Shown here piece after piece: positions 19,916-48,644 of a stretch of 64,000 nucleotides of DNA. The DNA is from Owenia fusiformis. Lineage: Eukaryota; Annelida; Polychaeta; Sabellida; Oweniidae. The notes beneath the pieces were generated by a model. That model had not been told where the DNA came from. It worked only from the letters and a program-made list of their open reading frames with translations, and searched no databases. A program made the position numbers and the translations under genes. Within the stretch, counting starts at the first letter, position 1; each line of letters starts with the position of its first letter. The stretch lies in the NCBI GenBank assembly GCA_903813345.2, contig CAIIXF020000008.1:10941278-11005277 (forward strand), written 5' to 3'.

Positions 19916-20519
19916 TTTTAGAAATGATTAGCAGTCGATGTTTATTCTATCGCATTTCAACCCAGATGCTCAGAGCTTTCCTCTTTTATGTCTTTCGATG
20001 CTTAGACTATACTACAAGTTCTCTCCAGGAACACCGTCATTGAAAATTAAAAACGTTCGTCGTTTTATCATATGTCAAAAATTACGAACAAATTTCGTCC
20101 TAATATTTTGGCCGATCATAAAATCGATGCAGAAGCATGTTTGGCGTAATCCGGCCGATTGTTTAAAAACTTAAAATTTTCAAAATTTCTCGTTGCTTGA
20201 ATTTGCTGTCAATGGAACAGTGCTTCGATAAATTGAAATTGGATTGTAATAGCTGAACTGAATGTTTGTATTTATATGGTAGAAATGGTATCATAGGTCG
20301 ACACAATCACTTATAAAGGTAACACAGGTACATATATTTTTTCCCCCAAAAAGTTGAAAATTTCAAAATTATTCAAAAAATTCATTCAAATACCCTTTGC
20401 ATTCGTTCGACTTCAGTTCTTAGAGAGCTAAGTCTTCACTCTTTCAATTTACATGAAATCTTACCGAACTTATCGAGGTCCAAAACTTGACTTACAGTCG
20501 TGAGATCATTGGATCAAGC

Positions 20520-20546
20520 ATGGGCTTTCATCTATTGAAAGCCCAT
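20520..20546. other. Perfect hairpin (11-bp stem, 5-base loop)
   Basis: ATGGGCTTTCA and TGAAAGCCCAT are exact reverse complements separated by TCTAT. The hairpin sits inside the unique core of transposon copy 1. There is no evidence of a function; it may be a residual terminal inverted repeat. Confidence 0.6.
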
Positions 20547-20619
20547 ATGTTGCTATATTGTTACCAGTTTTATCCCCGTTCTGTACACCTAAATTACACA
20601 CCTCAATAAATTCTAGAAG

Positions 20620-20924
20620 TCTAAATGATGCTTTTCAGTTGATCAAACCCATTATCGTCTTGGTTGCATTGGTAGAACGAGGTCATTTAGTTTTTTCATG
20701 GATAGATATTCCATCACTTTTCAAAATGGCCGTTAAATTTAGCAGGGGATTCTCCTTATGGCTGGTGCATGCCAGGACTGGATGTTCCACTAAATTGAGG
20801 AATTTGACGGTTAAAATAAGTTAAATATTACAAGCAATATTGCTATCAAAAACGAAGATTTCATTGTTCTGCCGATAAACCAAAACGATTATGGGGTTTG
20901 ATCAACTGAAAAGCATCATTTAGA
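20620..20924. mobile_element. Nested 305-bp MITE with long inverted ends
   Basis: The left end TCTAAATGATGCTTTTCAGT followed by TGATCAAACCC is mirrored on the right by GGGTTTGATCAACTGAAAAG followed by CATCATTTAGA. This is a near-perfect inverted repeat of about 40 bp. It lies within the larger TACCC/GGGTA element. A plus-strand open frame (20,558-20,824) crosses its boundary and is not a gene. Confidence 0.8.
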
Positions 20925-21390
20925 TTTCAAGATTGCTGATTGGTTGAGAAAAGGTCAGCGTGGTAGGTTTAAAATGATTTATGACCCAGCCTGTCCAGGC
21001 ACTTGTGGTCGGGGCGGAGCTGCTTAACAGTATTATAGTCTATACTAAGCAGAGGGTAGTTTATAACTAGACTCTGCATGCAGGGTATCATTCAAAGAAA
21101 ATAAAATCAAAATTTAGTCTTGATTAAAATATCTGTTGAAAATCTTGATTCTTTGAATCCCGCTTTTTATGTCCCCAACACATGTCACATAGTGTCGACA
21201 ACTTTCAGCTCATCTTTATTTAAATGAACCAGAAGTGAATTTTCGAGTAAATGGTTGTGATGTTCTTTTTATGAAGCTGAGAAGTCAAAACATTACAAAT
21301 AGAAATTAAAGTAAGCATTTGAAGATCATTTAGAAGCATTTAAAATCGAATCCACAGCAAAATTTGAAATAACTGAAATATATCCACACC

Positions 21391-21474
21391 GACGTCACAC
21401 TTCCGGTTTTATAATCGATGATTTGATCGATCATAAAATATTTTTATGAATTGTCCAATATCTCCTTCAATATG
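21391..21474 (+). promoter_or_regulatory. Candidate CPSF2 promoter and non-coding first exon
   Basis: GACGTCAC (CRE-like) at 21,391-21,398 is followed immediately by CTTCCGGT (ETS-type) at 21,400-21,407. These are common elements of housekeeping promoters. A good splice donor, ATG|GTATGT, lies at 21,475. The CPSF2 ATG exon appears to have an acceptor just upstream (TTCCAG ending at 23,507), so a non-coding upstream exon is expected, and this patch is one candidate. Positional inference only. Confidence 0.25.
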
Positions 21475-21663
21475 GTATGTATACCTGTGTTGATTGTTAA
21501 ATGAAAAAATAGGTAGGGAATGTCAAAGTCAATTGATCTCGTCCAAGAAGCAATATTTTTTATTTCTATCGCTCAGAATTCCTTTAAATTATTTTGGAGC
21601 GTTATAGATAATTTTAGGTGTCCTGTATTGATAACAGAAGTTGTATATGACAATTTTGAAAAA

Positions 21664-22590
21664 AATCCGTCCGTCCGTTGGTCCGTCCATCAACATTGGC
21701 TGCACAAATTAAAACTGCTATTCGGATTGAGTCATATCCACATTCATTTTATGCATATCAATAATGCCTATTTGACCTATCATCACCATTTCCCAAGTTC
21801 GCCCCGTTTCCGAGAAATTGCTGATTTTGACGTCAAAAAGTCAAATTTTCTGTAAATACTAGACACTTTGTTGAAGTAGAATTTTCAAATAACTTGTAGT
21901 AGTTGCTGTATATGCCACTTATATCCTCTGAAGATTTCAAAGCTCTTGGAATTACAGTTTTTGGTGTTTACTCTATAAAATTTGACAAAAAGTAGGACTC
22001 ATTTTCAGGAAACTTTCTCATATATAAAGTCAATGGCAGGTTTTGTGATTGACAAGTTTCTCAAAGTTTGCCTTATACTTGATCATTTCTTGCAATGAAT
22101 TACATCATAACTAGATTTAAGCATTCCATACATATTGCTCAACATATGTCAGCATCAAATTTTTACCGTTTTTGAGATATTTGACGTCAAAGAACAGTAA
22201 AAATAAGTTATTTTTCAACTTGCTTCAATTTGACCAAATTTTTGGGAAAATCATCTACAGGTTGCCAGGAGTTCAAATCTGACATTAGTTTTAGGATTTG
22301 CCCTTTACTTGACCTTCAGTGACCTTCGAAAGGTCAAAAAAGTTGATTTTTCAAATTGATTTTTGGATGTAAATTTTGGTCAGCTTAATCACAAAAGACC
22401 TTACTGAGCTCTGAATAAGTAAAATTTTCAAGGTCAAAGGTCATCAAACTAGGTCACACAACTGTGCTATCTAAGTTTCTCAAAGTTCGAGACTACAAAT
22501 CCAAATCAATATTTTTGTTTGAAAGTCAGGATATACATTCCTCTGAAGGTTCCAAACTGTGTGAGCACAGGACCATGGGTCCTTTATTTA
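21664..22590 (+). repeat. Dispersed ~0.93-kb repeat (CCGTCC ... GGGTCCTTTATTT), longest copy
   Basis: It starts with a CCGTCCGTTGGTCCGTCC microsatellite. Next comes a block with CTGCTATTCGGATTGAGTCA, then repeated TTTGACGTCAAA and AAGGTCAAAGGTCA words. It ends GTGAGCACAGGACCATGGGT followed by CCTTTATTT. Partial copies in the same orientation lie in CPSF2 intron 4 at 25,684-26,306 and 33,930-34,412. No domain is recognisable in any frame. Confidence 0.75.
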
Positions 22591-23044
22591 TTGTCAGCCA
22601 TTCTTGTATTTTCCTTCGTAAAATCTTATCTGGAAAGTATTCTCATGGTTTGAGGGATCAATTTAAAATTTTCAGGGATGATTCTTTGTATGCAAATCTC
22701 TGACTGCATCTTAGGGAAATTTTAAGCCAGCCATTTTGAATTTCAGTCCTAAAATCCTTTCTGTAAAGGCTTGCTTAGATGTTTTTAGAAGAACTGTTTC
22801 CCATATCAATGTCACATTTCACATATACGTACATATCAATTTCAAATTTTCAGGGATAATACTTCATTTGCAAATCTGTAACTTTTTAGTTTTTGGGCAT
22901 TCTGGGTAAATGTTAAGGTTGCCATTTTGGATTCCTCTCTGTTTAGTCTTGTCTACATGTTTCCTAGCAAACTGGTTGACGGATCGATTTCAATTTCCAG
23001 TTATCAAACTTATCAACAGAATTTTCAATGCAACTGTACTGTAT

Positions 23045-23432
23045 GGGGCTCCCTAAGGGGTATGTGATAAGGCGACTTGGCTTCTCAAAATGTGACTAAA
23101 TGGGACTTTGAGGTACTTAAAATGAACAAATGTGACAAATCAATCCTTGCAAGTGACAATTTTCACATTTATCGGACTGACAAGTGTTTTGAGAGTGACA
23201 AAAATAGATAATTCGTTCTGAATGTAAATTAATGCTAGTTAAGATGACTTATTCTAACCAGCAATCAAACAATGGAACATAACAGACTATTTAGTACATT
23301 AAATACTTTGACTGACTAAAAAGGAACGAACCTGACAAAATATGACAAGTAAATTTTAAATGTGACAAAGTGAGAATTTTGAAATCTTAAAAGTGACAAA
23401 AGCGACCCCACTACCTCCTCTTGGGGAGCCCT
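23045..23432. mobile_element. MITE with GGGGCTCCC termini, copy B, 6-bp TSD
   Basis: The termini GGGGCTCCCTAAGGGG and CTCTTGGGGAGCCCT are inverted. The flanking direct repeat CTGTAT is at 23,039-23,044 and 23,433-23,438. The interior is full of GTGACAA / GTGAC words and aligns with 13,247-13,631. It sits 90 bp upstream of the CPSF2 start codon and ends about 75 bp before the apparent splice acceptor of the ATG exon, so it probably lies in the 5'UTR intron. Confidence 0.8.
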
Positions 23433-23507
23433 CTGTATATCAAAGGAAGCATCATTTGAATTGAAAATAGCTTATTTATTTCAAGACTTATCATTTTTAT
23501 GATTCCA

Positions 23508-23671
23508 GAATACAAATACAAGATGACATCTATCATTAAATTGCATGCCCTCTCAGGAGTCCAAGATGAAGGCCCCTTAGCCTATATGCTGCAAGTGGAT
23601 GAGTTCAAGTTTTTACTAGATTGTGGATGGGATGAAGGCTTCTCTATATCACACATTGAAACACTGAAAAA
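23508..23671 (+). CDS. CPSF2: CPSF2 exon with start codon (coding from 23,523)
   Basis: It encodes residues 1-49 plus two bases: [17 protein letters not shown]..., then [16 protein letters not shown]. The ATG at 23,523 (context ACAAGATGA) was chosen because homologues start MTSIIKL. An in-frame upstream ATG at 23,499 lies before a pyrimidine-rich TTCCAG acceptor (ending 23,507) and would be intronic. The donor is AA|GTATGT at 23,672. Confidence 0.93.
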
Positions 23672-26600
23672 GTATGTTTTAATATAAATTAACTTAAAGC
23701 TATATGTTCACCAATTATTGGACTCATAATTGTAATGAAATGGGGTGAAGTTTAACAAGACTATAATGTTTCATTGAAAAAATATCCATGAATATTGGGA
23801 TTACTATAGGTAAAAAATTAGTCAGTTAAGACTTAGTTGAATTATGTTGGGCAAAGTCATCGAGGCCTTAATGGCCTGATTGATGCTTGTTTTGCTTTTT
23901 TATTCAAATTATACATATGTATCTATCTCTTAATTGATTAAATGCTGCAAAAAATGTTGACCATTTTAGTTTAATCAGATTCTACAATCTCAATAAAGTT
24001 TGTATGTTACAGACATATCCACCAAATAGATGCCGTTTTGTTATCATATCCTGACCACTACCACCTTGGGGCACTACCATACCTTGTTGGAAAATGTGGC
24101 TTATCATGCCCTGTATATGCCACTGTCCCTGTTTATAAAATGGGGCAAATGTTCATGTATGACATATACCAGGTAAAATATCCATTAAAAATTATCCAGA
24201 GAAAATTTAGTTCTGTTGATTCATAGAGTACAAATGAAGTTACTTTTTAATATATGAGAGAAATTTCTTTAAATGAGAAAATGTTTAAATATGAAGGTAT
24301 CATTCTAGATGTGCCTATGAAGTTAACATGAAAAAATAATGTAAATAAACTACTAGAGAAATACCTCGACCATTTATTTTCAGTCTCACCACAACTCTGA
24401 AGATTTCACTCTCTTCACTTTGGATGATGTTGATCAAGCCTTCGAGAAAATCATTCAACTGAAATACTCGCAAACAATTAGTCTAAAAGGTAACATTTTT
24501 GTTTCTTAATGCAAGGCCAATTTTGAATATACTTGAGAATTGACAAAATAAAAGACAGCTGTGAGAATTTAAGCAGAACCATAAATAAGCTTAAAAAACA
24601 TTCTGCACCACCTAATGAACCTGCTGGATCATTCTGCCAAATTTAGCCAGTTGTGTTTTGGACAGAGGGTATTTCCAGATCATTTAAACAATTGTGTACA
24701 TTTAGGCTCATGCACAATCTCTAAGTAAACTAAATACAATGATAACTAAGTTAATGGGACTCCCTGTGATCATGAGGTCCAAGTCAACCCATCAAAATAC
24801 ATTTTACATGACTAGGACTTTATTTTCATCATAAAGGCATCGAGCAAAAAGACAAACCTTTTTTAATGGTCTGAATATACAGACAATCCAAGATATAATT
24901 GTCTGAAATTGACTGCAGTATGCAGTCAATTTCATGGAAACATGATTGAGGTAAACTCAAATGAAGTTGATACATTATTTGACATACCAGGCCAGTGTAG
25001 AGCGAAGTATACAGCGAAGTATAATCTTTTTTACAATGTGGAACAATACTTACCCTTTGAATTTGTTTGATATATTATATCATTAACATGATAAATCATG
25101 ACATCTCATTTCTTCTCAGCCCTTTCAGGTGAAACAGAAAGATGCTATGAGTATTAAAATGTGAAATCATATATTTTTTATGATTTCAGGGAAAGGTCAT
25201 GGTCTTCAAATCACTCCTATAGCTGCTGGTCACATGATAGGTGGCACTATATGGAAGATTGGCAAAGAAGGAGAGGAAGATATTGTTTATGCTGTTGATT
25301 ATAATCACAAGAAAGAGAGGTAGTATGATGTACAGGGTGATTCCAAAATGTTATTTAATTTGGGTCAAACAAACAGTCAAACTCTTTGTTGATAAGATTA
25401 CCACCTGCTAAAACTGCTTACCTATGCAACTTGAAATTTTTACAGCTGCAAGAGCAGACAAGTGCCAACATCTGATTCTGTTTAGGGCATTCTGGGTAAA
25501 TTGCTTGGTGACCACTTTGAATTTTTCCATAAATCTTGTCATCAAAATTCAAGAAAACCACTTATCAGTTCAACTTCAAATTTTTATCAACCATATGGCA
25601 AGATCTGATTAGGTATTGTGTATGCTGGCTAACTTACATGGTTGTCATTTTGAGATCTTTTTTTGAATCAAATATTTGTGATCGACCAGGCATCCGTCCA
25701 TCCGTTGGTCTGTCCGTTGGTCCAACCGTCTGCACAAATTAAAACTGCTATTCGGATTGAGTCATATCCACATTCATTTTATGCATATCCATAATGCCTA
25801 TTTGACCTATCATCGCCATTTCCCAAGTTTGCCCAGTTTGAGAAAAGTCAAATTCTCTGTAAATACTAGACACTTTGTTGAAGTAGAACTTTCAAATAAC
25901 TTGTAGTAGTTGCTGTATATGCAACTTATGCCTGTTTGACATATCATCACCATTTCTTAAGTTCTTTCTGATTTCCGAGAAATTGCGGATTTTGACATCA
26001 AAAAGTCAAATTAATTGACTAACTGAACAATTGACTAACTGAAACTGATAGGCAAATCTGACTTGAGAAACTGAGTACTGAGTAACTAAATAATCAATTT
26101 GAAAAATCAACTTTTTTTTGGATGTAAATTTTGGTCAACTTAATCATAAAAGACCTTTTAAGCTCTGAATAAGTAAAATGTTCAAGGTCAAAGGTCCTAA
26201 AACTAGACTACAAATCAAATTCAATAATTTTGTATGAAAATCACGATATACATTTTCTCTGAAGGTTCTACACTGTGTGAGCACAGGGCCGTGGGTCCTT
26301 TATTTAGTTCAGATATGTTTTGTAAAAGTTCATTTGGGTATATAGGATTTAGAAATATAGTTGAACAAATTGTTTTAATTTTGTTTAAGTGATTTATATA
26401 AGACATTTTAGATTTGTTTATTTTGTTCACTAACGTTTTTCCAACATTTTTAAAGTAGTTATTAAATCCATCAGCTATTGCTTGCTTATTTTCTGTAATT
26501 GACCCATCAATCATCATTTTAAAATTGTCAATTTTATTGAATTTCTTCCTACCAAGTACTTCATTTATGATAGTCCAAGTTTTCTTGATATTTCCATTTA

Positions 26601-29600
26601 AGAGATCTACATTATGAAGATATGACTTACAGTCATTCTTGGTTTCGCCGTCATGAGATACACAGTACTGTCATGACTCATAAAACGAAAAAACAATTAT
26701 TGATTTTCCTAATCTTGGAAAATTGAGGTAAAAATAAAATGCACTTTAAAAATACCATTTACCACCATATAGAGAAACAATCAACTAAACTAAAATAATC
26801 TGTTGAGGTGTACAATTTACCCAGTATACCCATATCAAGGTCAGTGGTTGAGAATGTAACATACTTTAACAAAGACGAGATTAAAATTTCCAAATTGATT
26901 CTTAATTAAGATGAATGAACAAAAAGATTCAGTGATTGTTTTTGTTTAATTTATTTGGAAATCGGCACATTGATAGAACATAGGTGGCGCTGCAGTGTTG
27001 TGTCACATAGACCACTTGTATTGTATGGAATGGATTTGGACTGAAAGTAAAATATACATGTAACAAACAATCATCCTTCACTCATTAGACATGGATACAA
27101 TCATGCACTTAAATTAAATTTTTGAATTAAATTTGTATATTTTTAATTAATAAGTTAATAAGAAGAAATTAGTGAATACAATAAATAATGTCTATGTAAT
27201 ATAAGTATTGTTGCAATTTCTCTTAGAGGCCTTCCCCCTATACTCTTGTATAGCTTATTGGGGGGAGGGGGTGAGATTCATTACTGATTTATACAAGATA
27301 ATTACAAGAGTTTTATAAATAGAGAAAATACTTTGAATGAATTGCCTTCTGTGGAAGAATCTTAGTACCAGAGACTTGTCACATTAAAATATGTATCTTG
27401 ATTTCTTAGTGGATTGTATGTTGTACAGGACAGTTAAAGACAGGTTTCATTGTAGGATGGACATTTTCTGATTGATATAATCTAAATTCTAGAGATCATA
27501 TTTTACAAAAAATATTAATTCAGGCATTTTTTCCAATAGAAACTGAGAAAATGATGGCTAGTGATGGTATTATATTGGTTATAACATGTGGTATGAATAT
27601 AGAGATACCCTTGATTGATGCAATTTGCAATTTTTTAATTTGATTGCATGGTTCCAATTGATATTTTCAATAATACTCATATGCAGGAGTCTTAATATCT
27701 ACAGTGCAGTACACTTTTTACATAAAATATGCTTTAACATTATTCGTAATCTTACATATAGGTGCTATGTATAATAGTAAAAAACAATTAAATATATGAC
27801 ATTGAAGTAACACTTTTAGAACCTCAAAATATTGTTCTACTTGGGAGATGTTCATTTTAATTGAAGTCGGAATTGCACTCAGTTTTGAACAAATAACTGA
27901 ATCAACCAGGCGCCAGATTGAAAATTGGAGTAAATATGACCCAGGCCTTTTGGAGGTGTTCAACCTACAGAAGTTCATTCACATTAAAACTATGTGTATC
28001 TGGATCTTGGGATATGTATACTTATGGAGTTTTCCACCAGGTTCTGCTGTATTACAATTTACAATATCCGTTCCATTTCTTTAATGTACTGGTGAATGTA
28101 CTAAGAGTCTTGTGATTCTTCTTCATATTGCAATCGTTTATCCCTTTCAATTTTCATAAGACAAAAGTTCAAAACAATTGCAAAAAAACATAAAATAGAT
28201 GTCAGAACAAAAAACCACTGCGTACATAATTCTCCATAACAAGTTTGTGATCCAGGTGGACTATAGGTTTCATAATTCAAAGCAAAAAGCTTTTGAAATA
28301 AAACCATTCCAACTGCATGGCCAACCGTCATTAAACCAGTATTTTGTGCAAAATATTTCATACCAAATAGGTCAACAGTGATAGTATATACTTGTACATA
28401 AAAGAAGGCAAAGGCCATGACTGCCATTGCAGAGGCACTCATCAAACCAGCAAAGCATTGGTTAAAAAATACCAAGACTATTTGACTTATACATGTGAGT
28501 GTTACAGGGAATAAAAGAGTTGATGATTTGGGAATGTCTGGCCATTTTTGCGAAATGTAATCTTGTACCGCTCCGCCAATTAATCGACCAATTGATGCAA
28601 GGATTGGAATTGTCACTGTGAAGGCTATTGCATTGATGTGAACCTGTGCAGATTTCACAAGAGTTGTAATATTATTTGTAAGAGTTCCACCAGTGCCCCC
28701 AGTGATTATGCAGATAAATAGTATGCTATAAAACTGAGGTGTTTTACTGATTTGCCACCACTTCATTTCTTCAACTATTGGTTGATTTGATATCTTTTTT
28801 CCAGCAATTGGAGTTGTTTCATTCATTTCATCACTTCTATTGTAAAGCGTAACATTCTGGAGTGTATTTCTTTCTGCTATTTTATTTTCATTTGTATCAA
28901 TCAATTCTAGTTGGCCAATATCATATGCAGCTGTTACTTCAGGAAGTGTCTCTAGCATTACAACACCAAATGTATTTATACAAACTGATAATACAGCTAG
29001 CATAAGCAAGAACTCTGCAAGCTTTTGGTTCTCTGCATCTTCAATGTGTCCTTGAACAAACAATCCTCCATAGAGGGCGCTAAATATTGCAGGGCTTATT
29101 CCAAATACAGCTTGGAGGAGGCCAAGTATCTTGCCAGTATGCTTTCTGTCAAAGTTCTTGCAATTCACCACTCCTGATGCTGTATATATAAATTGAGTTC
29201 CAACTGATGCCATAAAATAAAAAGCACAAAAAAGCCAACTTTTTGAAGTGAAGAATATCCTAAAGTTTGTTGCTGTCGACATGAGTCCAAATCCTAAGGC
29301 TGTGAGAACAAGTGAGATTATACATGATACTCTTGGACCAAAAAGGTCAAAGACAATTCCTGCTGGAAAGGAGAAACAAAATCCCAAATCGCCACTAGAT
29401 GCAATATATTCCAGTTCAGTTTGAGTATAGTTGAATGCATGTTTCAGGGCAATTGCATATGCATTAAAAGTAAACACAATTCCTAACATGAAATATGCCA
29501 GAATCCCAATACTCAGTGACACATACTTCTGTAGTTTTCGGTTTTTTAAATCCATGATGGGAAAACATACTGTCACATTACTAGTCCATGCTGTAATCCA

Positions 29601-32600
29601 TATTCAGGTCAATGAGAAAAATAATTGATTCACAAATAATTTACATACCTATACATAAATACATACATTGTACATCAGTTAAGACTGATATACAGCATAC
29701 ACAAATGTGAATGGTATATTTTGTTCAGTGAAGCTGATAGTGTGCACAGGGTGTAACAGTATGCATGTTTTATTATTGACAAGTCTCCTCCCATCTCCAT
29801 GTTAGTCCAGTTGTGTTTTATTACAGATTCTTATCATAATCTGTTATTGTTACAGATGATAATCACATTGCAGGGGCGTTGGATCATATTTTTTTAAAAG
29901 GGGGGGGTGCGTTTTCCTGAAAATATATATTGAATATATTTGATATTAATAAGCAGTTGAAATGCATTTTCATGTACAAATGGATTAATAAACTCCATAA
30001 TTATCATAAAATTTTTCCAAACCTCTTCAGTACCATCCAAGAGAGACATGTTTACAACACCCGAAATAGGGTAAACTATGACAAACCCAAAATTCGAACA
30101 AATTATGGTAAAGCCTTGATATCTTTTACTGCACCATCAATTTGGAATTCATTACCTATTGAAATAACATCATCTGGAAGTATTTTTATTATGAAAAAAG
30201 AATTGAAAAACTATTTTATCAATCAATAATATCAATTTCAGATAACCATAGTGGGCATTATATGACACATTCTTAGTCACACATAGATAGTAGCATTCAT
30301 CACACAAGCAGATCCCCAATCTGTACATTTCATGATTATAACCACGGGAATATACATGAGAAGTGTCACCCGTTTACTGTACATTTGATGTTGAAATATA
30401 TATGAATAAATAAATAAAATAAATAAAAATATAGGTGGCGCAAGAACTACTTGCGTGGCCGAAGGAGGTTGCAGGCATGCTCCCCCAGAAAAGTTTTTTT
30501 GAAGACATTATTTGGCGCAATCTGAGCGTTTTCAAGGACTATAAAAATTTCTTTCTGATAAACTAAATCGGTCAAGTATACGATTTATTAGATGAATATT
30601 GATACAAGCCACGGATCCAGGATTTTGTGTTCGGGGTGGGGGCGCTTGATAATGGCTGTTAGGGAGGCGAACCATGACAAGTGAGCGCAGCTAATGAGGG
30701 CCAGATTCTCCCTACAAAAAGTTTCAAAATTGAACATCATTCGGTGCATTCTGAGCAATTTCAGAACACAATATCCTGCACATAAAATCATTACATTGGA
30801 ACATCTTTTCAAGACATTGGTTAAGGGGGGGGGGTAATCTCCCCCTGAATCCGCCATTTGGTACCCTATGGAATAATATCCTTGGTATCACTTATGATAG
30901 ATCTACCACTAACGTGTTCTTTTGCGAAAATACATTACAATTTAAAAAGTAGGCGTATATGTTGATTTCTTCGATGAAAAATGGATGGATGACTGTCAGT
31001 TTATTTTTATTGAATGCCCTGTGATCAGAAACTGAACGGAGGGGCTAGCCGAATTCTGCTAGAAAATTCAACAAAACTGCAATATTTATTTTTTTCACGA
31101 GAAAGTTGAAATAAATCACTAAATGTATAGGCATGGCACCAACGTGAAATGTTTTTGCATTGATATCTAAAACCCAGCACCTACATAGAGACTATAGAGA
31201 ACAAAAGTCCGCACCATATTTGAAAAAGGGGTTGCGTTTTCCAGAAAATATAGATGGATAGGCAAATGATTGCTTGGAAAAAGGCCACGCATCTGGGGGT
31301 CTGGAGCATGCTCCCTCATGGAAAATGTTTGTCATTGAAGACGTTATTTGGTCAATCTGAGCGTTTTTAAGGACCATAAATAGTTGTTTTCTCATATAAA
31401 GTAGCATTTTTGAAGTTTCACTGAGGAACCTTATCAAAAAAAGTTTTTTGGGCAGTTTCATAGGGTTCAAAAGGGTTACAGAATCTAATCTGTAATGCTT
31501 TGGGCGCCTAAACTAAAATTAGGCCCAAAGGATGGGTATCGATATGGCAAATTTTTTGAACACACTTTTTGTTAACAAAGTTGATTGTCAAATTGCATTG
31601 CAATGTGATAAGGAATAAAACCTCTTTCAGAAACTATTTAGTGTAAGATTTGATTGTTTTGGATTAATATTCTAATTGGTTGTATCTCAGGTATTATCTT
31701 GTTAATTAATTAACAAGATACCATTGCCACCTATCGTTTTTCGATTGAAAATAAAACTCATGATAAGTTAATTATAAACATAATCCTAGATATAAACTTA
31801 CAAACTTTCTTGTCATGAGTTAATACCCATTGATTGGAATGTGTGAATGGAGGAATCAAGTCCCAGGGGAAATAATAATTTCAACATTTTACCTTAAATT
31901 ATGACTATGACGTTTTCTTAACACATTACTTTATCTTTTACCTGAACACAACTGTGACTGTTTTATGATTTATGATGGTGTTTTTAAACAACAAACGCTG
32001 TTATTAACTAACTTCATATACAGGGTGTCCCAGAAGTAATGATAATTATGCTCTAAAATTTTTATTTGATATGGAAACAATATGAAATTCACACAAATTA
32101 AAGATCAAGATGTTAGCTTCATTTTACTATATTACATTTATTACTTTACACAAATATATTCAATGTATAGTTGCCATAGCAACATGTACGCGCATTCTGC
32201 GGAGCAGCTGTGTTTTTCATACATTTTTGAAAAACATTTCATGTTCATATGTTTCCCTGCTGTTCACATCACTACTGTAATGCTGCTACTTCATTCCTGA
32301 TATTCCTGAAGAGCATTGTACATTGTTGATTCACTTATCCACATACTGTCCTTTGCTGGAGACAATTTGTCTGTGCCTTTCCAGCCAGGATTGGAAGACA
32401 TGATCAAAACCACTGTTGGACATATCCTGCAGAGCCAACTGAACCGAGCAGCGCAATTGTCACCAAACCATTTATGCCACCTATACACAGTGGGGTTGGA
32501 CAGTCTTCTCTCGCCATATGCTTGTTTAAACTCCTTTATAATGTCACTGGGTTTACCCCCTGTCTGTCTGAAGGAATTTTATGACTGCTCTCTGCTCTAA

Positions 32601-35600
32601 TTTTTTTTCATCTTTGCTCAACGTTGGTGGAATAATGTATACCTCCCTGGAAATTCCTAGGTTATGTTCCTAAGAGTTTTCCTTTTGTGAAACCCTATAT
32701 GACATCATCATATGATGTCATAATATCAGATTAAAGTGATAATCCTGTCACAATGAGATAAATTACATAATATTAATTTATTAAACCACTATGACATCAT
32801 GCAACTGTATACAATTACCATAACAATGATTTAAAAGCTTGAAACATTATCACAGAATGACTGCTTTTCTAAACTAAGTTTGAACATTTATAATATACGG
32901 AAACTGCTCCGCAGAACGCGCATACATGTTGCTATGGCAACTATACATGAAAAATTTTTGTATAAATTCATAAATGTAATATAGCAAAATGAAGCTTATA
33001 TCTTAAACTTTAATTTGTATGAATTTCATATTGTTTCCTTGTCAAATAAAAATTTAAGAGCATAATTATGATTACTTCTGGGATACCCTGTAGTACAGTT
33101 GTTTTATTGTTTAAAACATAGCATGCAGTATTGGAATAGTCAAATATGTATATATCAACATGATTTTTAAGTTTGTTTTCACTTTTGTTTTATAATTGCA
33201 TAAAACAATTGAATAAGAGGAAAAACACATCTAGAAATATTGTTTATTAGTATATTTTATTCTTCATTCGCATTACCCAGGACAAAATGTGAAAAAATAA
33301 AAAAAAAAATAATAAAAAAAATGTGACTCCAATATTTAATTCGCGGGGTCCTGAATTCGCGATTTTATACTCATGTGGATATACGCGTACCCTTTGCATT
33401 CGTTCGACTTCACTTCTTAAAAGAGAGCTCCGTCTTCACTCTTTCAAACTAAAATAAACCTGTGAACTCACCGCGCCAATCAGTGTTCGTCGGCCAAATT
33501 TGACCGACGTTCTATATATGGTCATTCCTTCTGACGTCATCGTTGAGCCCGGAATTAACCAATGACATGCGCATATTTAATTAGAACGCATTTGGCGTAT
33601 GTTTCTTCAAGCTCGCTGATTGGTGGAAGAAAGGTCAGCGCGTAGGTCAAATGTGATTTATTACCCAAACTGTCACCGGTACCCGTCGCGGGGGCGGGAC
33701 TACTAAACTGTAATATGGTCTCTACTAGGCAGAGTGTAGTTTAACTAGACTCTGCACGCAGGATAATATACGCGAATTCAAGATGCTCGCAAATTTAACA
33801 TGTTTTACAATATATATATATATATATTTCAAATTATATTGTTACCATTCAAAAGATGATGGTCACCATTAAATTGACAATGTGTAAAATTTTTAGAATT
33901 TTTTGATGACTGGTTTAAGAGAAACGTGTGTTCAAAATGTTCCCCATATCGATACCCATCCTTTGACAAAAATCAGGACTTAAGGAAGCCATTTTCAGGG
34001 AACTTTCTCATGTACTGGTATATTGTCAATGGCAGGTTTTGTGATTGACAAGTTTCTCAAAGTTTGTCCCTTTACTTGTTCATTACTTGCAATGAATTAC
34101 ATTAATACTAGATTGAAGCATTCATTCCATATTGCTCAATATATGACAGCATCAAATATTTACTGTTTTTGAGATATTTGACGTCAAAAACCAGTAAAAA
34201 ATAATTTATTTTTCAATTTGACCAAATTTTTTGAGGAAAAACGTCTAGAAGTTGCCAGGAGTTCAAAATCTGACCTGTCACAAACTGTGCTATCTAAGTT
34301 TCTCAAAGTTTGAGATTACAAATCAAAATCAAAAATTTTGTTTGAAAATCAGGAGATGCATTCCTCTGAAGGTTCTACATTGTGTGAGCACAGGTCTGGG
34401 TCCTTTATTTTCATAAATCTTACCATCACAGTTCTGTTTAATTTGAAATTTTTACAGCTGCCAGAGAATACTAGTGCCAAGATCTGATTAGGTTTTGAAC
34501 ATGCTAGATAAATTACATGGTGCCCATTCTGTTCTTCAAAGTGTGATATTTATCTCTGTATGTCTTGTAATTACTTTTTCACCATTTTTACTTTCAATAT
34601 AAAAAACAGTACATGTTTCTGTGTCTGTCAAAGATTCAAAATATTCTGTTATACTTTGCTGTGTTTATTCCAGACATCTGAATGGATGCCAGCTCGATGC
34701 GATAGCACGTCCCCACCTCCTTATAACAGATGCTTACAATGCCACCTATAATCAGGCCAGACGTAGACAGAGAGACGAACAGTTAATGAGTATGGAAACT
34801 GTTAAATGTTGTAAAATAAAATGTAGCGTAGTCCTGCATAAAGTGGCAGTTGCGCAAATAAAGATTAGGGAGGAGGGACTAATGACTCGACTAAAATTAA
34901 ATGTAGCTTAATCCTGCATAAGTCCCTGGGATAAACCACCTCCATCGTCATGGAAAAAGTAAATTAATGTAAATTGTTGAAAATGCACAGCTTACTGAAT
35001 GTCAATGAAAATAGTTAACTCTTTACAATGAATTTGGAATAATGAGTTGCCTGTTGGCCAATAGATTGATTGCCATTTTTTAAATTGGGCAATCATGTGT
35101 TCAACCGTTGTTGAGATCCCTTGGATAAAGATGTAATAGCTTGTAAGACTTGTACAATGTATTCCCTGATGATTATGTGTCATGAGAAACATGTTTTATC
35201 TTGGGAACATCGATTTGAAATTCTTAAACATCTGATTTTACTTCTGCTCATCCTCCATTCACAGTAGTATTTTAACTCTCTCTTCGTGGTAGAAGAATGA
35301 ATAATAGACTAAATACCAGGGAAAAATAATCTTGACTTCATGGTTGAAAGTGAAAATTGATTCAGCCAAAGTGATATCATTTTTGAAATCCACTTGCTAA
35401 ATTACATCTGAAATTGTAATTTTAGATTTGTTAAAGACTCAAGGTATACAAATACATAAAAATTTACATATAGTTTTATTGTATAGACATTTGAAATTAT
35501 ATAATCCATAATCAAAAAGGTTACATGGAATTAAATTATCTGACTAAATCTGGTTTTATTTAAGAACATTTTGTATTTGACCCAAGTTACCAATCTGATG

Positions 35601-36647: not shown

Positions 36648-36789
36648 GTCAGTCACATCTTTTCATAGACATTGGTTGTTCAGTTCTATTGCTGTGTTTT
36701 ATGTTGGTTTCAGTTATATATGTTACCATTAGTCCTGCATTTAATGGAGTGGTACAGGGTCTCATTGCGAGACTATGTTGTTTGAAGTG

Positions 36790-37459: not shown

Positions 37460-37506
37460 ACATTGTACTGCACTGTACTGTATTGTACTGCACTGTACTG
37501 TATTGT
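37460..37506. repeat. CACTGTACTGTATTGTACTG short tandem repeat
   Basis: Two and a half copies of a 20-bp unit made of CACTGTACTG/TATTGTACTG halves. Confidence 0.75.
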
Positions 37507-38100: not shown

Positions 38101-39732
38101 ATTTGATGTACACAAAATGTTTTTTATCAACTTATAATCTTGGATAATATCAGGGTTATCGTCACAGGTGACACTGATATTAATATCACAGTGGCATGCA
38201 GTCATGTCAGTAGATTAATATCATAGTGGCAGTCTAGTCAAGGTGAGTTTTGACTAATGATGGTTGGTGGGTTTGAGTATACATAAGGATTAGTGGCAAT
38301 TTGTAATGATTTAATTAATGACCTTTGTGTATATTTGCACACTTCTCATGAATCATAATTTCATTTGAGACGGCTAGTAGATTAATCCTTCTCATCTAGA
38401 TATTAATAATCTTAATTTCCTGTATGTACATGATTGATGGGCATTTTGGGTTTCATTTTTGGGATGTTTTGTGTAGGTTGATATTGCTTGTGAAGTCGTA
38501 TTTTTCCTTTGTTAAAGTTGATGAACTAATTAAATCCTAAATGATGAAATTTGACATTCTTTTGATGATTTTGTTATTTTGAAGTTGTTTTCACAATGTT
38601 TCTATTGTAATATAGGATTCATCCATGGAATCACTTTTCAAAGTTCCTTATCATGTTCGATTTTGATACTTAGATCATTTCTGATACGTCAATGACCAGA
38701 ACTTTCCTTTGATAAGATTATCCATCAATATCAACATCTGACCATTGACGTCTTCACCCCTTAATTTCTCAATTAAAGTCCCTTTAATTGCTTCAATCAT
38801 TGCTAAACTAATGGAATTAAAGTCCTCAAAGAGTCATCAATATGATAATACAAAGTCTCACGAATACCAGCTTTGGCTAGTTAGCTAGTTAAATGAGCAA
38901 TTATTTAATTTAGTAGCATTCTGAGGGTAACATCTGACTTTGATGTTCATATGAATCCTTATGCTTTCGCATGTTGATTGCTATCAGGTGTAAAAAACGA
39001 GACCCCATAGAGAAAGGTTTATGGGCTAACGTCACCCATGTTGGAATGTTATCTCGGAACAATTGAATTATAGAACATTAAAGCAATAATACAAACGATT
39101 TTTATCACATAATAAAGTGAGATGTTGGTGTGATGCACTCTTTATTGCTAATCTGTGTATTTATGGCTCTCTTATGTAACATATGTATAAACTCGTTTAT
39201 TTGTTATCCACCATAGATCCCACATCTTTGTTTCTATGGTAATAAAACAACGCAACTAGTGAGCAACAAAAACACAGTGATATATTTTTATTGCATTTTA
39301 GTCAAAAAGACAAACTAACAATACATCAAATGATATAACAAACAATACGTACATTTTCGTGAAAGTTTCATATTACATGTACTGAGCTATTACTTGCTTT
39401 GATCAGCAGTAATCTATTAATAGTAGTTTTGCAATGGAATAAAATAAGCGAGAAAACATTTAATTTAAATTAAAATGTGACTATAGCCTAGAGTTGAAGA
39501 AACAAATCTTCAAGTTTTTCATCAAAATTTCCCCTCAAAGAAGTAATCTTATTTATAAACAACCCATGATGTGAATACAAAAATGTTGATAAACTAAAAT
39601 AAATCTCTCAAATCCTATATTTATCCTCTAACCTGTTAGCTTTTTATTATCCTGTTTTTGTCCAAGTTTATGAGGCATTAATGTTATATCTTCAGCCATC
39701 TTTGAATTTATTATACAAAATAAACATAAGAT

Positions 39733-40296
39733 AGATCTGCCGTCCAACTCTTCGACAGGTATATTACATTGGCCGTGGGATAATCTCAATATCCTGAACC
39801 TCATATAGGATAATCTCTATATATTTCTTATATTCGAAGAATCCTATTTTACATTTAAGTACCCTAACATATTAGATCTGCCGTCCAACTCTTGGGCAGG
39901 TATATTACATTGGCCGTGGGATAATCTCAATATCCTGAACCTCATATAGGATAATCTCTATATATTTCTTATATTCGAAGAATCCTATTTTACATTTAAG
40001 TACCCTAACATATTAGATCTGCCGTCCAACTCTTGGGCAGGTATATTCCATTGGCAGTGGGATAATCTCAATATCCTGAACCTCATATAGGATAATCTCT
40101 ATATATTTCTTATATTCGAAGAATCCTATTTTACATTTAAGTACCCTAACATATTAGATCTGCCGTCCAACTCTTGGGCAGGTATATTACATTGGCCGTG
40201 GGATAATATCAATATCTTGAACCTCATATAGGATAATCTCTATATATTTCTTATATTCGAAGAATCCTATTTTATATTTAAGTACCCTAACATATT
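39733..40296. repeat. Tandem array, four exact 141-bp units
   Basis: Units begin AGATCTGCCGTCCAACTCTT at 39,733, 39,874, 40,015 and 40,156. Spacing is exactly 141 bp and the array ends at 40,296. Units differ at only a few positions, such as TTCGACAGG versus TTGGGCAGG in the first. Each unit contains GGATAATCTC twice and a TTCGAA palindrome. Although 141 is divisible by three, all plus frames are stopped within the unit, so it is not a coding repeat. Confidence 0.95.
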
Positions 40297-40829: not shown

Positions 40830-41096
40830 TGGAAAAATTGAAATGTTTTACAATCATCCTATACAATTATCTTATTCAATTATCTTATACTTGCAAAATA
40901 TCTCACACTAAAATTCTAGGTGAAATATTCTCATAATGTTCAAATGTCCAAAATTATGGGTTATTGCAGTTACTCTGAATTAATTAGTTGTTCTTCTCTT
41001 TTCACCAAATTGAAGACGATTGTTACTATGGAGATGGCACATTCAGCAACATAAGAAGTCATTTTGACTCTCATGTTTATATTTACTTCTGTTTTT

Positions 41097-41238
41097 ATGT
41101 CACCACCACAAGTGGTGACACATTGTTATTCTGTAGTCTCCATCTTTTTGTAGACAGTATTCGGCTGTTGATATTTGGCATCCAGCATTCAATGGTTGGT
41201 GTCTGTAACAAATGGCAGGTGGTAACATGCTTGTTTTA
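41097..41238 (+). mobile_element. GTCACCAC-family MITE copy (near complete)
   Basis: It begins TGTCACCACCACAAGTGGTG followed by ACA, continues TATTCTGTAGTCTCCATC, TTTGGCATCCAGCATTC and TGTCTGTAACAAATGGCAGG, and ends TGGTAACATGCTTG. The 104-codon frame across it (40,988-41,302) is repeat-derived. Confidence 0.75.
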
Positions 41239-43552: not shown

Positions 43553-43650
43553 GTCCCCCAACTTTTTTGTGGACTTTGTTCGTCATTTGGTGTTTGGTGT
43601 CTGTAACAAATGGCAGCTGTTGACATTTTGTATGTTAATGCCTTGCTTGT
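43553..43650 (+). mobile_element. GTCACCAC-family MITE copy (truncated)
   Basis: It has CCCCCAACTTTTTTGTGGAC, GGTGTCTGTAACAAATGGCA and GACATTTTGTATGTTAATGC followed by CTTG. It lacks the palindromic GTCACCAC end. Confidence 0.65.
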
Positions 43651-45183
43651 ATTTTAATCTGATTTTTTCATGATATTCTAATAAATTTGAAAATATTAAA
43701 ATTCTGAATGATTGGATTTTTCAGAATTTTTTGTTGTACTGTGGTACTGCAGTCCATTATTTTTGAAAGTAATTTCCATTTAATGATGACTGAAATAGAA
43801 ATGAAGCTTCGTTATTGAATATTTTTACGGTTAGGTAATCTGCCCCCCCCCTAACCCGTATGATCTTGGAAACAGACAATCACATGAGGGTGTATTAGGC
43901 ATCATTGGAAAGGTTATTCAATTATTCAGCTATTCAATTCCCTATGTTGACTTATTATTAATGAAGAAAATATTCTAAGAACACAGAGGTATTTGAACAG
44001 CTTTAACTTTCCTCCTAGGGGAGTTAGTCAAAAAAATTTTGCAAAACATGTCTAATTCATTTTTAAGAAAACCTAGAATGTTTCAAGTCAAAAGATGAAA
44101 CTACGAAAAAAGTTACCAAAAATATTCCTTAGGGGGTAGATCTGCCCCCGCCTCCCTAACCTTGAAGGGTTAATCCTCTTTTAAAATGCATGTAGGATAG
44201 CGATAAAATATAAAACAAAATACTAAATGAATCTCATTCAGATTTTAGTCAAAACAAATCTTAATTTCAATCTAAAAGAAGTATGAAAATGTTCACTTTA
44301 GAACAATGTAAGTCATCTTCGTTTCATTTCATCTTAGAAAATTGACCCACCCTTTGATCGATTTCTAATTTATTTCAACAAAACCTGTTCAGAATTTATT
44401 TTGTACTTTGTACTGGAATGAGATGTTGAAAGACCTGTTCATTTCAAAAGAAAATATGCTGTTGATGAAAGAATAAAACATATTTGTATTAGTATTACCA
44501 CTTAGACTAATGAATTTGTCTTTAAAAGTATGTAATTTTGTAATAAAGGATGCCTATCATCTCATATACTCTGTGGTTTGATGTATTTTCCTACCCTGAA
44601 GCTTTAGAGAATGTAAAGTCATAGTCTGGTTGATCATAATGTTTGGTTTTCAAAAGGACCATTTTAAAGTTGAAACTTTTAAAACATGAGTCCTTGTTTC
44701 TGTACTGTTAAGCAAAATGCAGCAGGGTGATAATATTCATAAGTGACTAGGAACCTGAACTATTGGATTTAATACATAGGCAGATGGAACAAACAGGGAT
44801 AACCTATCGGATCTTTTATGATACAAATATATTTTATGACTTTTTCATGTCTAAGTACCCCCATCAAACCTATTCAGCAAATGACATGCTCACCATATTT
44901 ATCATTATTTCATTTGTGAGATTAGCAAAAGTGGTTTGTTTTCTCAGATTCCATTTTCATTTTGTGTGTCATCACGCATGTTGGTCTCCTTTACTGTGTT
45001 ATCATATGTGTTAACTGCACCCTTTGCTCCAATCATTCCTTTGCATTCTTATTGGGATGTGACATTATGGTCAATGTGATTCCTACCTTAGGGAGCTTTC
45101 CTTGTCCTCGAAATTAAATCACTCGAATAAATACATTATTTGGAAATAGAGATCCAATAGGGAATTCACGAGATTATTGAAAT

Positions 45184-45361
45184 ACAGTGAAACCTGTGTT
45201 TATTGAACATTGTATTGAACAGATTTCTCGGCATGTGTTGGTAGGTGATCACTATAGAGAGGGCAATTTATACATAAGTCAGTAGAGTATGTGTGGAGGA
45301 AGGGTGTCTGCTAGAGACACTTGTTCACTAGAGACATGCTCACTAAGACTGGTTTTACTGT
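45184..45361. mobile_element. Pogo-like MITE copy, near complete
   Basis: The ends are ACAGTGAAACCTGTGTTTAT and AGACTGGTTTTACTGT (inverted). The interior shares GTGTTGGTAGGTG, AGAGAG and GTGTGGAGGAAGGGTGT with 1,194-1,336. Nearby 45,461-45,545 holds a tandem run of GAACACCTC words from the same family. Confidence 0.75.
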
Positions 45362-45460
45362 ATGTCTAAAGTACTCCAATACATATTTGTTATTTAATCA
45401 TATTTTGAAAATTCATATTTGGATGATTTCAAGTTATTACATCTGTATTTTAGTAAAACT

Positions 45461-45545
45461 TGTCTTGTGAAAACACCTCTCTATTGAACACCTCAAAACA
45501 TGAACACCTCATTACATAAACACCTCACAACATGAACACCATGAT
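45461..45545. repeat. GAACACCTC tandem run
   Basis: Four near-copies of a 15-16 bp unit containing ATGAACACCTCA follow AAACTTGTCTTGTG. It is a fragment of the pogo-like repeat family with local expansion. Confidence 0.6.
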
Positions 45546-45696
45546 GTGTTTTACATTGTCTAGGCAGTTCTCATTTTAGCCCTAGCTATGTGGGTGTAAT
45601 TAGAATCCGTATTAGAAAGATGGATGACCTTTTGATGGTGTAATCTGTAGATATCAGGTCGCCGTAAATAAAGAGCTTTGGTCCGCAATCAAAATA

Positions 45697-45826
45697 ATGC
45701 AAAATGTCAACACCTGCCATTTGTTACAGACGCCAATGGCTAAATCCTAAATGTCAAATGCCGAACACTGTCCATAGAACAGTTGGAGACTAAAACAATA
45801 TGTCACCACTTCTTGTTGTGACAAAA
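45697..45826 (-). mobile_element. GTCACCAC-family MITE copy
   Basis: It has ATGCAAAATGTCAACACCTG, CCATTTGTTACAGACGCC, AACAGTTGGAGACTAAAACA and ATATGTCACCACTTC. The orientation is opposite to the 41,097 copy. Confidence 0.7.
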
Positions 45827-46715
45827 TAAATTATTTAATTTGGTCATTGACTTTTTATTGCTGTAGTTGTTCAGCACGTTGCAAAAAGCAGATTGGTCTT
45901 TACTGGAGACAAACTGACAATAATACTGGCTATTGTGAGAATTACGATCTGGTTACATCTATTGCTTGGTGGCATAGAGGGCATTGAATTGATTTATTTT
46001 CCACTAAACATATTAGTAATTCAAAGCAGAGACTTTATTCAATGATTACCCTGGTACTTGCTGCCCACTTGGGGACAGTCAATTTGGCATTAATCAAATT
46101 ATTGGAATCTTAATTAACTTTAAAAAATGATTCCTTGAATTCAATGGGATTTTCTCACATTCAGTACTTTAGGGACACTGTCCAGTTGTAAACAGGTGTA
46201 CAAAACAAAGTTAATTTCATTTGTCGGTAAACATGGTCCAAAGTCTAATTATAGAAAATTCTTTTATTTCACATAATCTTAATCCTTTTTAACACAATAT
46301 ATACCCTGCTAAACTTAAACTTAAAAATGTTGATTTCAAGTGAACGGCTAATTAATTTTTTTAAATTATATAATACAGGGAAAGGCTGAAGGGGGGTTTA
46401 ACCTAAACATTAGTAACTTAACATTTTGACATTATCCTTATGACTCAATTAACATGTTTGTTTGCTATTCCAGATAAAGTGATTTCTAAATATCTGCCAA
46501 GGGGGTCAATAATGCTTTTAGCCTAGGCCCTCCACACTTATTATACTGTATTAATGTACATATTATGCAAATAAAAACATTAACCTAATTACAAAATATA
46601 TATCTCCCATCTCATGGTCAGTAAGAGGAATTCTAGAGAAATATGTCTCCAAGTTTATCAAATCCGACTATTTAACCTCAAAAACATTGCAGCTCTTGCA
46701 GTATTGCAGTAACTT

Positions 46716-46852
46716 TTATGTCACCACCACAAGCAGTGACATTTTATTAGTCTCCAACTCTTGTGGACAGTTTTGGTGGTTAGTGTTGGGTGGTCGGCGG
46801 CATCTGTAAAAAATGGCAGGTGGTGAGATTTTGCATGTTGATCCCTTGTTTA
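46716..46852 (+). mobile_element. GTCACCAC-family MITE copy
   Basis: It begins ATGTCACCACCACAAGCAGT and passes through TTAGTCTCCAACTCTTGTGG, AAATGGCAGGTGGTGAGATT and TTGCATGTTGATCCCTTGTT. Confidence 0.75.
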
Positions 46853-47196
46853 TATAAATGTTTATACCTTCATGTACGGAGAAACTGTTATCTTCTGATA
46901 ATGCTTATTAATCAGTATGACAATTCATTTACAATTCCTTGTCAATTCATTTTTGGCTTTGTTGTGATGTCCGTAATGATGAAAACCATGAAATCTATCT
47001 GTAGTTAAAGATTGGTTTACTACAGACTATGTGTACAAACAACTCAGAAACTCTGAAAATATCAGTTCCCCAATTGATACTTTGCATAATGGTTACCCTT
47101 CCTTCTCCCACTTTTGCCCTTTGAAATTTAAATTAAACTTCACTAATTGAAAACATATCTTGGATCTTTTGGGAGCTATTATGTTTGAGTTACACT

Positions 47197-47553
47197 GATA
47201 GGTCAACTGTACACATTACTTGCTTGCTATTTTGTCACTCCCTATGGATCTGATTCTGCCTTTAACTAGAATGAAGAGATGATTGGGCAATTGATTTATA
47301 TGACAAACATTAGGCAGAGATTTTAATATATAAATAATGTCCAAAATTTGGAGAATCATGAAAAATTCATTGTGATAGGTCAACTGTACCCATTACTTGA
47401 AATTTTGTCACTCCCTATAGATCTGATTCTGCCTTTAATGAGAATGAAGAGATGATGGGGCAATTGATTTATGTGACAAACATTAGGTAGAGATTTTAAT
47501 ATATAAATAGATAATGTCCAAAATTTGGAGAATCATGAAAAATTCTTTGTGAG
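47197..47553. repeat. 177-bp tandem duplication
   Basis: GATAGGTCAACTGTAC occurs at 47,197 and 47,374, and each is followed by CACTCCCTATRGATCTGATT, GAATGAAGAGATGAT and CAAAATTTGGAGAATCATG. A diverged single copy (with its upstream flank GGATCTTTTGGGAG) recurs at 63,375-63,510, so the duplicated segment belongs to a dispersed repeat. Confidence 0.85.
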
Positions 47554-47635
47554 AGGCCACAGGCTTTTCAGAATAGCAAACAAAAGAAAAAACAGAAGAA
47601 TGCAACAAATTTGAATCTTGATCAATTTTCCTTTT

Positions 47636-47772
47636 ATGTCAACAGCAGAATAACATATTGTCATAGTCTCCAACTTTTTTGAATTGTCTTCAGCGCTCTG
47701 CATTCTTCATCTGTAACAATTTCCAATAACTTACAATGTGGTGACATTTTGTCATGTTATTAATGCCTTGTT
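47636..47772 (+). mobile_element. GTCACCAC-family MITE copy (diverged)
   Basis: It has ATGTCAACAGCAGAATAACA, CATAGTCTCCAACTTTTTTG, GTGGTGACATTTTGTCATG and TAATGCCTTGTTA in family order. Confidence 0.6.
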
Positions 47773-48267
47773 ACATTTGCAATTACAAATACTTTATTAG
47801 TCATAGGTTAGTACATGTAATAGGTTCAAGTAACAATTATAGACAGATATTTCGTTTCCTGAAAAAGGAGACATCCCTTAAAGTTTTATATTTGATATTG
47901 TACTGTTACCATATACCTCGTAGATATATTTCAACGAATTTATATATTAGTACTAAAAACTGTATAAACTTTATTTGCTTAGCTTCAAATACACAAGGCA
48001 TCCTACTTATGACATCATAGCGTTCCCTTACAGAGACAGTATCACCACAGATATCTCTTTTTAGAAAATAAAATTTGATTATAGAGGAACCATTCGAATT
48101 ATTTTCTCTTACATTTTGCATCTTTTACTTCCTTATTAAGGAGACCAAAGGAGATGGGATACCTGGGGTAGAGTTTGACAGGGATGTTTGGTTTGAAATT
48201 TTAAATCCTTCTCCACTGATTGGAATGGAGTAAAACCTGTCCAAGTGGAACACCTTTGGTACATCTA

Positions 48268-48644
48268 TACCCTGCATGCAGAGTCTAGTTAAACTACACT
48301 CTGCCTAGTAGAGACCTTATTACAGTTAAGTAGCCCCGCCCCCACGACGGGTACCGGTGACAGTTTGGGTAATAAATCACTTCTGACCTATGCGCTGACC
48401 TTTCTTCCACCATTCAGCGAGCTGAAGAAACATACGCCAAATGCATTCTAATTAAATATGCGCATGTTATTGGTCAATTCTGGGCTCAACGATGACGTCA
48501 GAAAGAATGACCATATATAGAACGTCGGTCAAATTTGGCCGACGAACACTGATTGGCGCGGTGAGTTCACAGGTTTATTTTAGTTTGAAAGAGTGAAGAC
48601 GAAGCTCTCTTTTTAGAAGTGAAGTCAAACGAATGCAAAGGGTA
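48268..48644 (-). mobile_element. TACCC/GGGTA transposon, copy 3 (377 bp), with 9-bp TSD
   Basis: It is the reverse complement of copy 2 with few differences. The plus strand begins TACCCTGCATGCAGAGTC and ends CGAATGCAAAGGGTA. The perfect 9-bp direct repeat GTACATCTA flanks it at 48,259-48,267 and 48,645-48,653. It retains the CRE, CCAAT, CTATATATGG (as CCATATATAG) and GC-rich CCCCGCCCCC motifs. It landed beside a pogo-like fragment (AAAACCTGTCCAAGTGGAAC). Confidence 0.9.

Follow-up and report, generated by a model that had tools for sequence, protein, structure and literature searches.

Three copies (A, B and C) of one repeat family lie within the window, the 64,000-nucleotide stretch of Owenia fusiformis DNA analysed here (Table 1). 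All of them begin with TACCC at the left tip, while the right tips read GGGTA in A and C and GGATA in B. Each copy is flanked by a perfect direct repeat of 9 bp, and the diverged copy A carries a nested inverted-repeat block.

Table 1. Coordinates of the three copies and of their features in the window
Feature	Position	Strand	Remarks
Copy A	20391..21087	+	697 bp; diverged; carries nested insert
Copy B	33388..33765	+	378 bp; ends TACCC...GGATA
Copy C	48268..48644	-	377 bp; opposite orientation to B; 95% identical to B over the whole length
Left 9-bp target-site duplication, copy A	20382..20390	.	TCATTCAAA
Right 9-bp target-site duplication, copy A	21088..21096	.	TCATTCAAA
Left 9-bp target-site duplication, copy B	33379..33387	.	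ATATACGCG
Right 9-bp target-site duplication, copy B	33766..33774	.	ATATACGCG
9-bp target-site duplication, copy C, low-coordinate side	48259..48267	.	GTACATCTA
9-bp target-site duplication, copy C, high-coordinate side	48645..48653	.	GTACATCTA
Left end of A common to B and C	20391..20447	+	90% to B, 87% to C (60 columns)
Interior of copy A	20448..20611	+	relation to B interior not detectable (z -0.2)
Nested inverted-repeat block in A (MITE-like)	20612..20932	.	about 320 bp; arms 20612-20695 and 20848-20932
Right end of A common to B and C	20926..21087	+	78% to B (163 columns), 79% to C (154 columns)
29-bp imperfect palindrome, copy A	21049..21077	+	10 bp inside right tip
22-bp central palindrome, copy B	33488..33509	+	counterpart in copy C at 48523-48544
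27-bp palindrome, copy B	33729..33755	+	10 bp inside right tip
27-bp palindrome, copy C	48278..48304	-	10 bp inside right (low-coordinate) tip

Flanking duplications and element ends

The target-site duplications (TSDs) TCATTCAAA, ATATACGCG and GTACATCTA match at 9 of 9 positions, differ from one another, and extend to a tenth position in none of the three cases. The + strand of the window holds 358 TACCC...GGRTA pairs at spacings of 50-5000 bp; among them, identical flanking 9-mers occurred at exactly copies A, B and C, with 0.0036 such cases expected from base composition. Random placements at the same spacings gave a 9/9 flank match in 50 of 2,000,000 trials. The sample behind the duplication length is small, consisting of three copies. 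The extended repeat arms of B and C end at the element ends, and their 30-bp flanks do not align. A mariner-like reading, with CCC...GGG tips and a duplicated TA, was rejected because a TA duplication cannot account for the 9-mer duplicated on either side of the TA in all three copies.

The window yielded no fourth copy when searched with a left-end 15-mer and a right-end 18-mer, each with up to three mismatches, or with blastn. The right-end 18-mer occurred only in A, B and C (0.03 sites expected), and the left-end 15-mer at eight sites against 1.41 expected; the five sites beyond the three copies carry two or three mismatches and have no longer blastn match. A candidate left end at 25051 (2/15 mismatches; 20-bp blastn match) showed no further homology and was dropped, as was a TACCC...GGRTA pair at 26818-28014 with a 7/9 flank match and no blastn homology to the family.

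Over the family, the ungapped inverted match between the two ends amounts to 5-6 bp. In A and C it is TACCCT (6 bp), and allowing a gap of 2 bases extends it to TACCC(TT)TGCAT, about 10 bp; beyond this, left and right ends are unlike each other. The palindromes near the right tips fold as DNA hairpins, with a z value of -4.68 in B, -4.62 in C and -2.95 in A, where 3 of 200 shuffles folded equally well. Of the left ends, those of A and B were put through the folding test and gave no fold. The subterminal palindrome may serve as a transposase binding site.

A preliminary description of the sequence had given the same starts and ends for the three copies, together with perfect and mutually different 9-bp repeats, and agrees with these results. 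Its TACCC...GGGTA termini apply to A and C and fail at the right end of B, whose GGATA it did not mention. Exact boundaries and movement by DNA transposition, both proposed there, are well supported. Homology stops at the 9-bp duplications, and the ends of 60 bp (left) and 150 bp (right) that it singled out correspond to the segments common to A and B.

Interiors and coding content

With the insert set aside, copy A resembles B only in about 60 bp at the left (90%) and about 160 bp at the right (78%), with similarity z values of 15.0 and 19.9, respectively. Over the roughly 160 bp between these ends, a relationship was undetectable (z = -0.2 from 300 shuffles; segments 58-225 of A and 61-217 of B). 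Copy A is an element of about 370 bp with an inverted-repeat insert of about 320 bp, and not simply a longer version of the others. The arms of the nested block are 83% alike over 86 gapped columns; on its right side, the block runs 7 bp into the right end common to the three copies. This insert was absent from the preliminary description.

Copies B and C contain no open reading frames (ORFs) of at least 85 aa. In copy A, one ORF of 106 aa was found (20504-20824), without a Pfam match at E 0.1. No transposase family, be it MULE or the DDE_Tnp_IS1595 type of Merlin, was matched in Pfam among the 13 of 36 window ORFs of at least 85 aa that were scanned, a search that short exons would escape. 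Exact patterns of the left or right end, three of them in viral contigs and two in genome contigs, had zero matches in these viral and prokaryotic collections, which has no bearing on animal genomes. Among the literature matches listed, none was a published account of these ends as judged by title or abstract start, and the listed papers containing an 11-base word of the ends were on unrelated subjects by title.

Affiliation of the family

The boundaries of the copies are exact, the three 9-bp duplications are independent, and conserved ends surround two unrelated interiors. As in non-autonomous DNA transposons in general, the ends are defined, the TSD length is constant and a transposase gene is missing; with 370-378 bp, the element leaves no room for one. 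Since at least two interiors occur between the same ends and a transposase could not be accommodated, the copies form a non-autonomous DNA transposon family. We consider them to be short, non-coding elements of an animal genome, moved in trans by a transposase that is probably Mutator-like (MULE), and assign this reading a probability of about 0.6. A DDE transposase encoded elsewhere in the genome, most likely a MULE, would act on the family by recognising two unlike ends, a left one of about 60 bp and a right one of about 160 bp that contains the subterminal palindrome. It would join these ends to target DNA via 9-bp staggered cuts, and repair of the gaps would leave the 9-bp duplication.

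The Mutator-like lead of the preliminary description fits the TSD length and the same ends around different interiors; it does not fit the long terminal inverted repeats (TIRs) of typical MULEs, and no transposase was found in its support among the ORFs scanned. MULE duplications are 8-11 bp (PMC6446971), and 9 bp was found in 3/3 copies, with two interior types among them. MULE TIRs, where present, are given as 14-500 bp, with 48 and 296 bp in the mollusc MULE-Cg (PMC6446971), and typically exceed 100 bp, as in 12 of 14 mosquito families (PMC5225508). A survey of arthropod MULEs that had selected for TIRs reports lengths of 13-1193 bp and, for most tips, conserved G/C within the first three bases, unlike the TA with which the tips begin here. 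The derivatives of Muta1 from Aedes aegypti are similar in their 8-9 bp duplications and in keeping terminal and subterminal regions around variable interiors. Muta1 itself has both 8- and 9-bp TSDs with little or no sequence preference and, unlike the present family, 145-bp inverted repeats at both ends and subterminal tandem repeats (PMC5225508).

The near-absence of TIRs is unusual, though it is known for some MULEs. Groups without TIRs include Curupira, with 9-bp TSDs, and MULE-Mollusca, for which no TSD length is given; for the plant VANDAL elements, TIRs are called absent or short and degenerate in the text and listed at 46-174 bp in Table 1 of that source (PMC6446971). The family resembles these groups in its lack of recognisable TIRs, and Curupira also in its 9-bp TSD. 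The groups themselves are defined by their transposases, and none was found for the family here. Owing to such exceptions, the missing TIRs lower the MULE claim without excluding it. MULEs were reported from all mollusc genomes analysed in a bivalve transposon study (PMC10294476), a result to which we give no weight here.

Other readings

A non-autonomous DNA transposon of another or undescribed DDE superfamily that cuts 9-bp staggers is possible though rather unlikely, with Merlin as the best named candidate. The inverted repeats of the family are too short for superfamily identification, and its left end, TACCCTTTGC, is one that we take to be reminiscent of piggyBac ends. The 4-bp duplication of piggyBac is TTAA, which is found at the junction in none of the 9-bp duplications. 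Merlin (IS1016-like) shares a TSD of 8 or 9 bp, but its TIRs are 24-462 bp long with a terminal 5'-GG (PMC8101967), unlike the tips TACCC and GGGTA or GGATA. CC..GG termini are common to piggyBac/IS1380, and A and C have CCC...GGG immediately inside their tips, but the piggyBac TSD is 4 bp (PMC10045372) against 9 bp here in 3/3 copies. A length of 9 bp is absent from those given for the other superfamilies named in the available parts of PMC10045372 and a second paper, namely hAT (5-8 bp), PHIS (none to 4; NuwaII 3 or 5), CMC (2-4), Ginger (4-5), Polinton (6), Zator (3), Tc1/mariner (2) and IS481EU (about 4, 15 or 25).

That the ends belong to an undescribed lineage of animal DNA transposons, with a transposase that uses structurally different ends (a plain left one and a right one with the palindrome) with almost no TIR and makes strict 9-bp duplications, is quite improbable; the family is genuine, but transposons of its kind are fairly commonplace. 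With an ungapped inverted repeat of no more than 5-6 bp, it could escape TIR-based detectors, and exact, TSD-verified ends are now supplied for it. Given the host genome, these ends are a direct probe for an autonomous partner and would show whether a TIR-poor animal transposon belongs within MULEs or outside the known superfamilies.

The short length and the promoter-like interior of B and C could suggest a solo LTR or a SINE, a highly improbable reading. The CpG observed/expected ratio is 1.24 in B and 0.99 in C against 0.40 in the window, and CCAAT, TGACGTCA, TATATAT and GC-box-like words were seen by eye, which we take to be promoter-like motifs; copy A does not share this interior. LTR elements normally end TG..CA, and the TSD length of SINEs varies. 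A poly-A or simple-repeat tail is absent from A, B and C, and neither a tRNA gene (ARAGORN, bacterial code) nor an Rfam match at the gathering threshold was found in the window, which gives no support to a SINE derived from a tRNA or from another known RNA. The TSD of LTR elements is 3-6 bp (PMC10045372) against 9 bp here.

The hairpin 10 bp from the right tip in 3/3 copies, folding with the z values above, resembles together with its 10-bp tail the 3' hairpin of Helitrons. Helitrons leave their target unduplicated and have TC...CTRR termini, so the 9-bp duplications in 3/3 copies contradict a Helitron-like element, as do the TA...TA ends, leaving it a very slight probability. Chance or segmental duplication in place of transposition, favoured by nothing other than the small copy number, is practically negligible given three 9-bp coincidences against 0.0036 expected and homology that ends at the duplications.

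Target-site duplications and copy boundaries

Direct reading confirmed the claim of the preliminary description that three copies of one short non-coding transposon family (A, B, and C) carry different perfect 9-bp target-site duplications (TSDs). A perfect 9-bp direct repeat bounds each copy, the 9-mer differs per copy, and none reaches 10 bp. The window has 358 TACCC...GGRTA pairs at spacings of 50-5000 bp; A, B, and C alone had identical flanking 9-mers, against 0.0036 pairs expected from base composition, and random placements with the same spacings gave an exact 9-mer match in 50 of 2,000,000 cases. As the three flanking 9-mers are distinct, the copies represent three independent insertions. 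The TACCC...GGGTA tips described for all copies hold for A and C, while the tip of B is GGATA.

Coordinates of the transposon copies and associated features
Feature	Position	Strand	Size	Basis or remark
Copy A	20391-21087	+	697 bp	sequence read directly
Copy B	33388-33765	+	378 bp	sequence read directly
Copy C	48268-48644	-	377 bp	sequence read directly
Nested inverted-repeat (MITE-like) block	20612-20932		~320 bp	inside copy A
Arms of nested block	20612-20695 and 20848-20932		84-85 bp	inverted
CPSF2-like gene	23523-36650	+		eight tblastn segments, 47-79% identical
MFS transporter ORF, intron-free	28101-29603	-	500 aa	Pfam
CACCTGCCATTTGTTACAGA-core repeat copies	3444, 11182, 41202, 43600, 45697, 46803, 55462

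Conserved ends and internal structure

Copies B and C differ by 18 substitutions (13 transitions and 5 transversions) and one single-base gap, an identity of 95%. Copy A owes its greater length to the nested block, without which it measures about 370 bp; no clear target duplication flanks the block itself, and one of TA is possible. Identity between A and B is 90% over the left 57-60 bp and 78% over the right 160-163 bp. Against 300 mononucleotide shuffles, their similarity reached z of 15.0 on the left and 19.9 on the right and -0.2 in the middle, which is no more similar than shuffled sequence. The family thus consists of conserved ends surrounding at least two unrelated interiors, as would be expected if the ends were the functional part that a transposase requires.

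The asymmetric ends, poor in terminal inverted repeats (TIRs), are the sole unusual feature of the family. Left and right ends are dissimilar. In A and C the tips match, inverted and ungapped, over 6 bp (TACCCT), and a 2-base gap lengthens this match to TACCC(TT)TGCAT; in B the match is interrupted at the third base. All three copies have a palindrome ten bases inside the right tip (27 bp, but 29 bp in A). Right-end hairpin folding gave z of -4.68, -4.62, and -2.95 for B, C, and A, respectively, the last equalled by 3 of 200 shuffles; the two left ends folded, A and B, formed no hairpin. B and C also have a 22-bp central palindrome in common, and none of 100 shuffles folded as well as full-length C (z -3.48). 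CpG observed/expected was 1.24 in B, 0.99 in C, and 0.62 in A compared to 0.40 in the window, which fits either younger insertions or a promoter-like interior.

Mobilization and superfamily

Constant-length duplications, exact ends, and the lack of a tail argue for a transposase with 9-bp staggered cuts, which would generate such duplications. No ORF of at least 85 aa occurs within B or C, and elements too short for a gene must rely on an enzyme supplied from elsewhere. Pfam was scanned with 13 of the 36 stop-to-stop ORFs of at least 85 aa in the window (E 0.001 for four and E 0.1 for ten, one ORF being in both sets). The MFS transporter was among them, and none of the 13 matched a transposase family apart from a weak helix-turn-helix match belonging to a separate mariner-like element.

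A non-autonomous transposon of the Mutator-like (MULE) type is the favoured reading, at a probability of roughly 0.6. MULE duplications of 8-11 bp include the length found here, and TIRs are absent from some MULE groups, among them one of platyhelminths, whose duplications are 9 bp long, and one of molluscs, for which no duplication length is stated (PMC6446971). Mosquito MULE derivatives have terminal and subterminal sequence in common around varied interiors, as seen in A and B, and 8-9 bp duplications that show little preference for a target sequence (PMC5225508). The Mutator-like lead of the preliminary description is favoured by duplication length and by the pattern of shared ends, but typical MULE TIRs are long (both sources), and in another mollusc group they measure 48 and 296 bp (PMC6446971), whereas this family is TIR-poor. 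Most arthropod MULE tips have a conserved G/C within the first three bases, which also counts against a MULE.

Mobilization by a transposase of another superfamily is rather unlikely. Merlin has the same duplication length, but its TIRs of at least 24 bp with terminal GG are unlike the tips found here (PMC8101967). With both readings taken together, a non-autonomous DNA transposon of some kind is very probable. The 9-bp duplication does not fit piggyBac, Helitrons, or LTR elements, and the family lacks the tail, tRNA relation, and variable-length duplication of a SINE.

As exact patterns, the ends had zero matches in viral and prokaryotic contigs, as expected for an element whose host is probably an animal, and no description of the family was found among the matches listed in open-licence literature. 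We could not match it to a described family; the kind itself is well known.

Gene setting and other repeats

The CPSF2-like gene was located by tblastn with a human CPSF2 sequence, counting segments at E < 0.5; one exon matches CPSF2 in PDB (E 8.4e-19). At this threshold, the 27 kb of the window that follow contain no segment for residues past ~325. The first detected segment lies about 2.4 kb downstream of copy A, and B is within an intron, being flanked by one segment at 25183-25317 and another at about 34675. The MFS transporter ORF is likewise nested in an intron, on the opposite strand. ORF 26221-26670 (-), 149 aa, resembles by eye part of a LINE ORF2; its only Pfam matches, M16C_assoc (E 0.0015) and GED (E 0.064), were below cut-off.

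A degenerate element at 32020-33093, presumably Tc1/mariner-like, has ~190-bp inverted arms (89% complementary) with tips CAGGGTGTCCCAGAAGTAAT and holds the ORF with the helix-turn-helix match (32291-32578, -; E 0.014, below cut-off). Dispersed short repeats with the core CACCTGCCATTTGTTACAGA or variants occur in both orientations, three of them no more than about 110 bp from another short repeat (3507, 11291, 45788). A tandem array at 39732-40296 comprises four copies of a 141-bp unit with 97% matches. At 60960-61319, 180 bp are perfectly duplicated in tandem (100% identical), with a 47-bp inverted partial match (85%) at 61552-61598.
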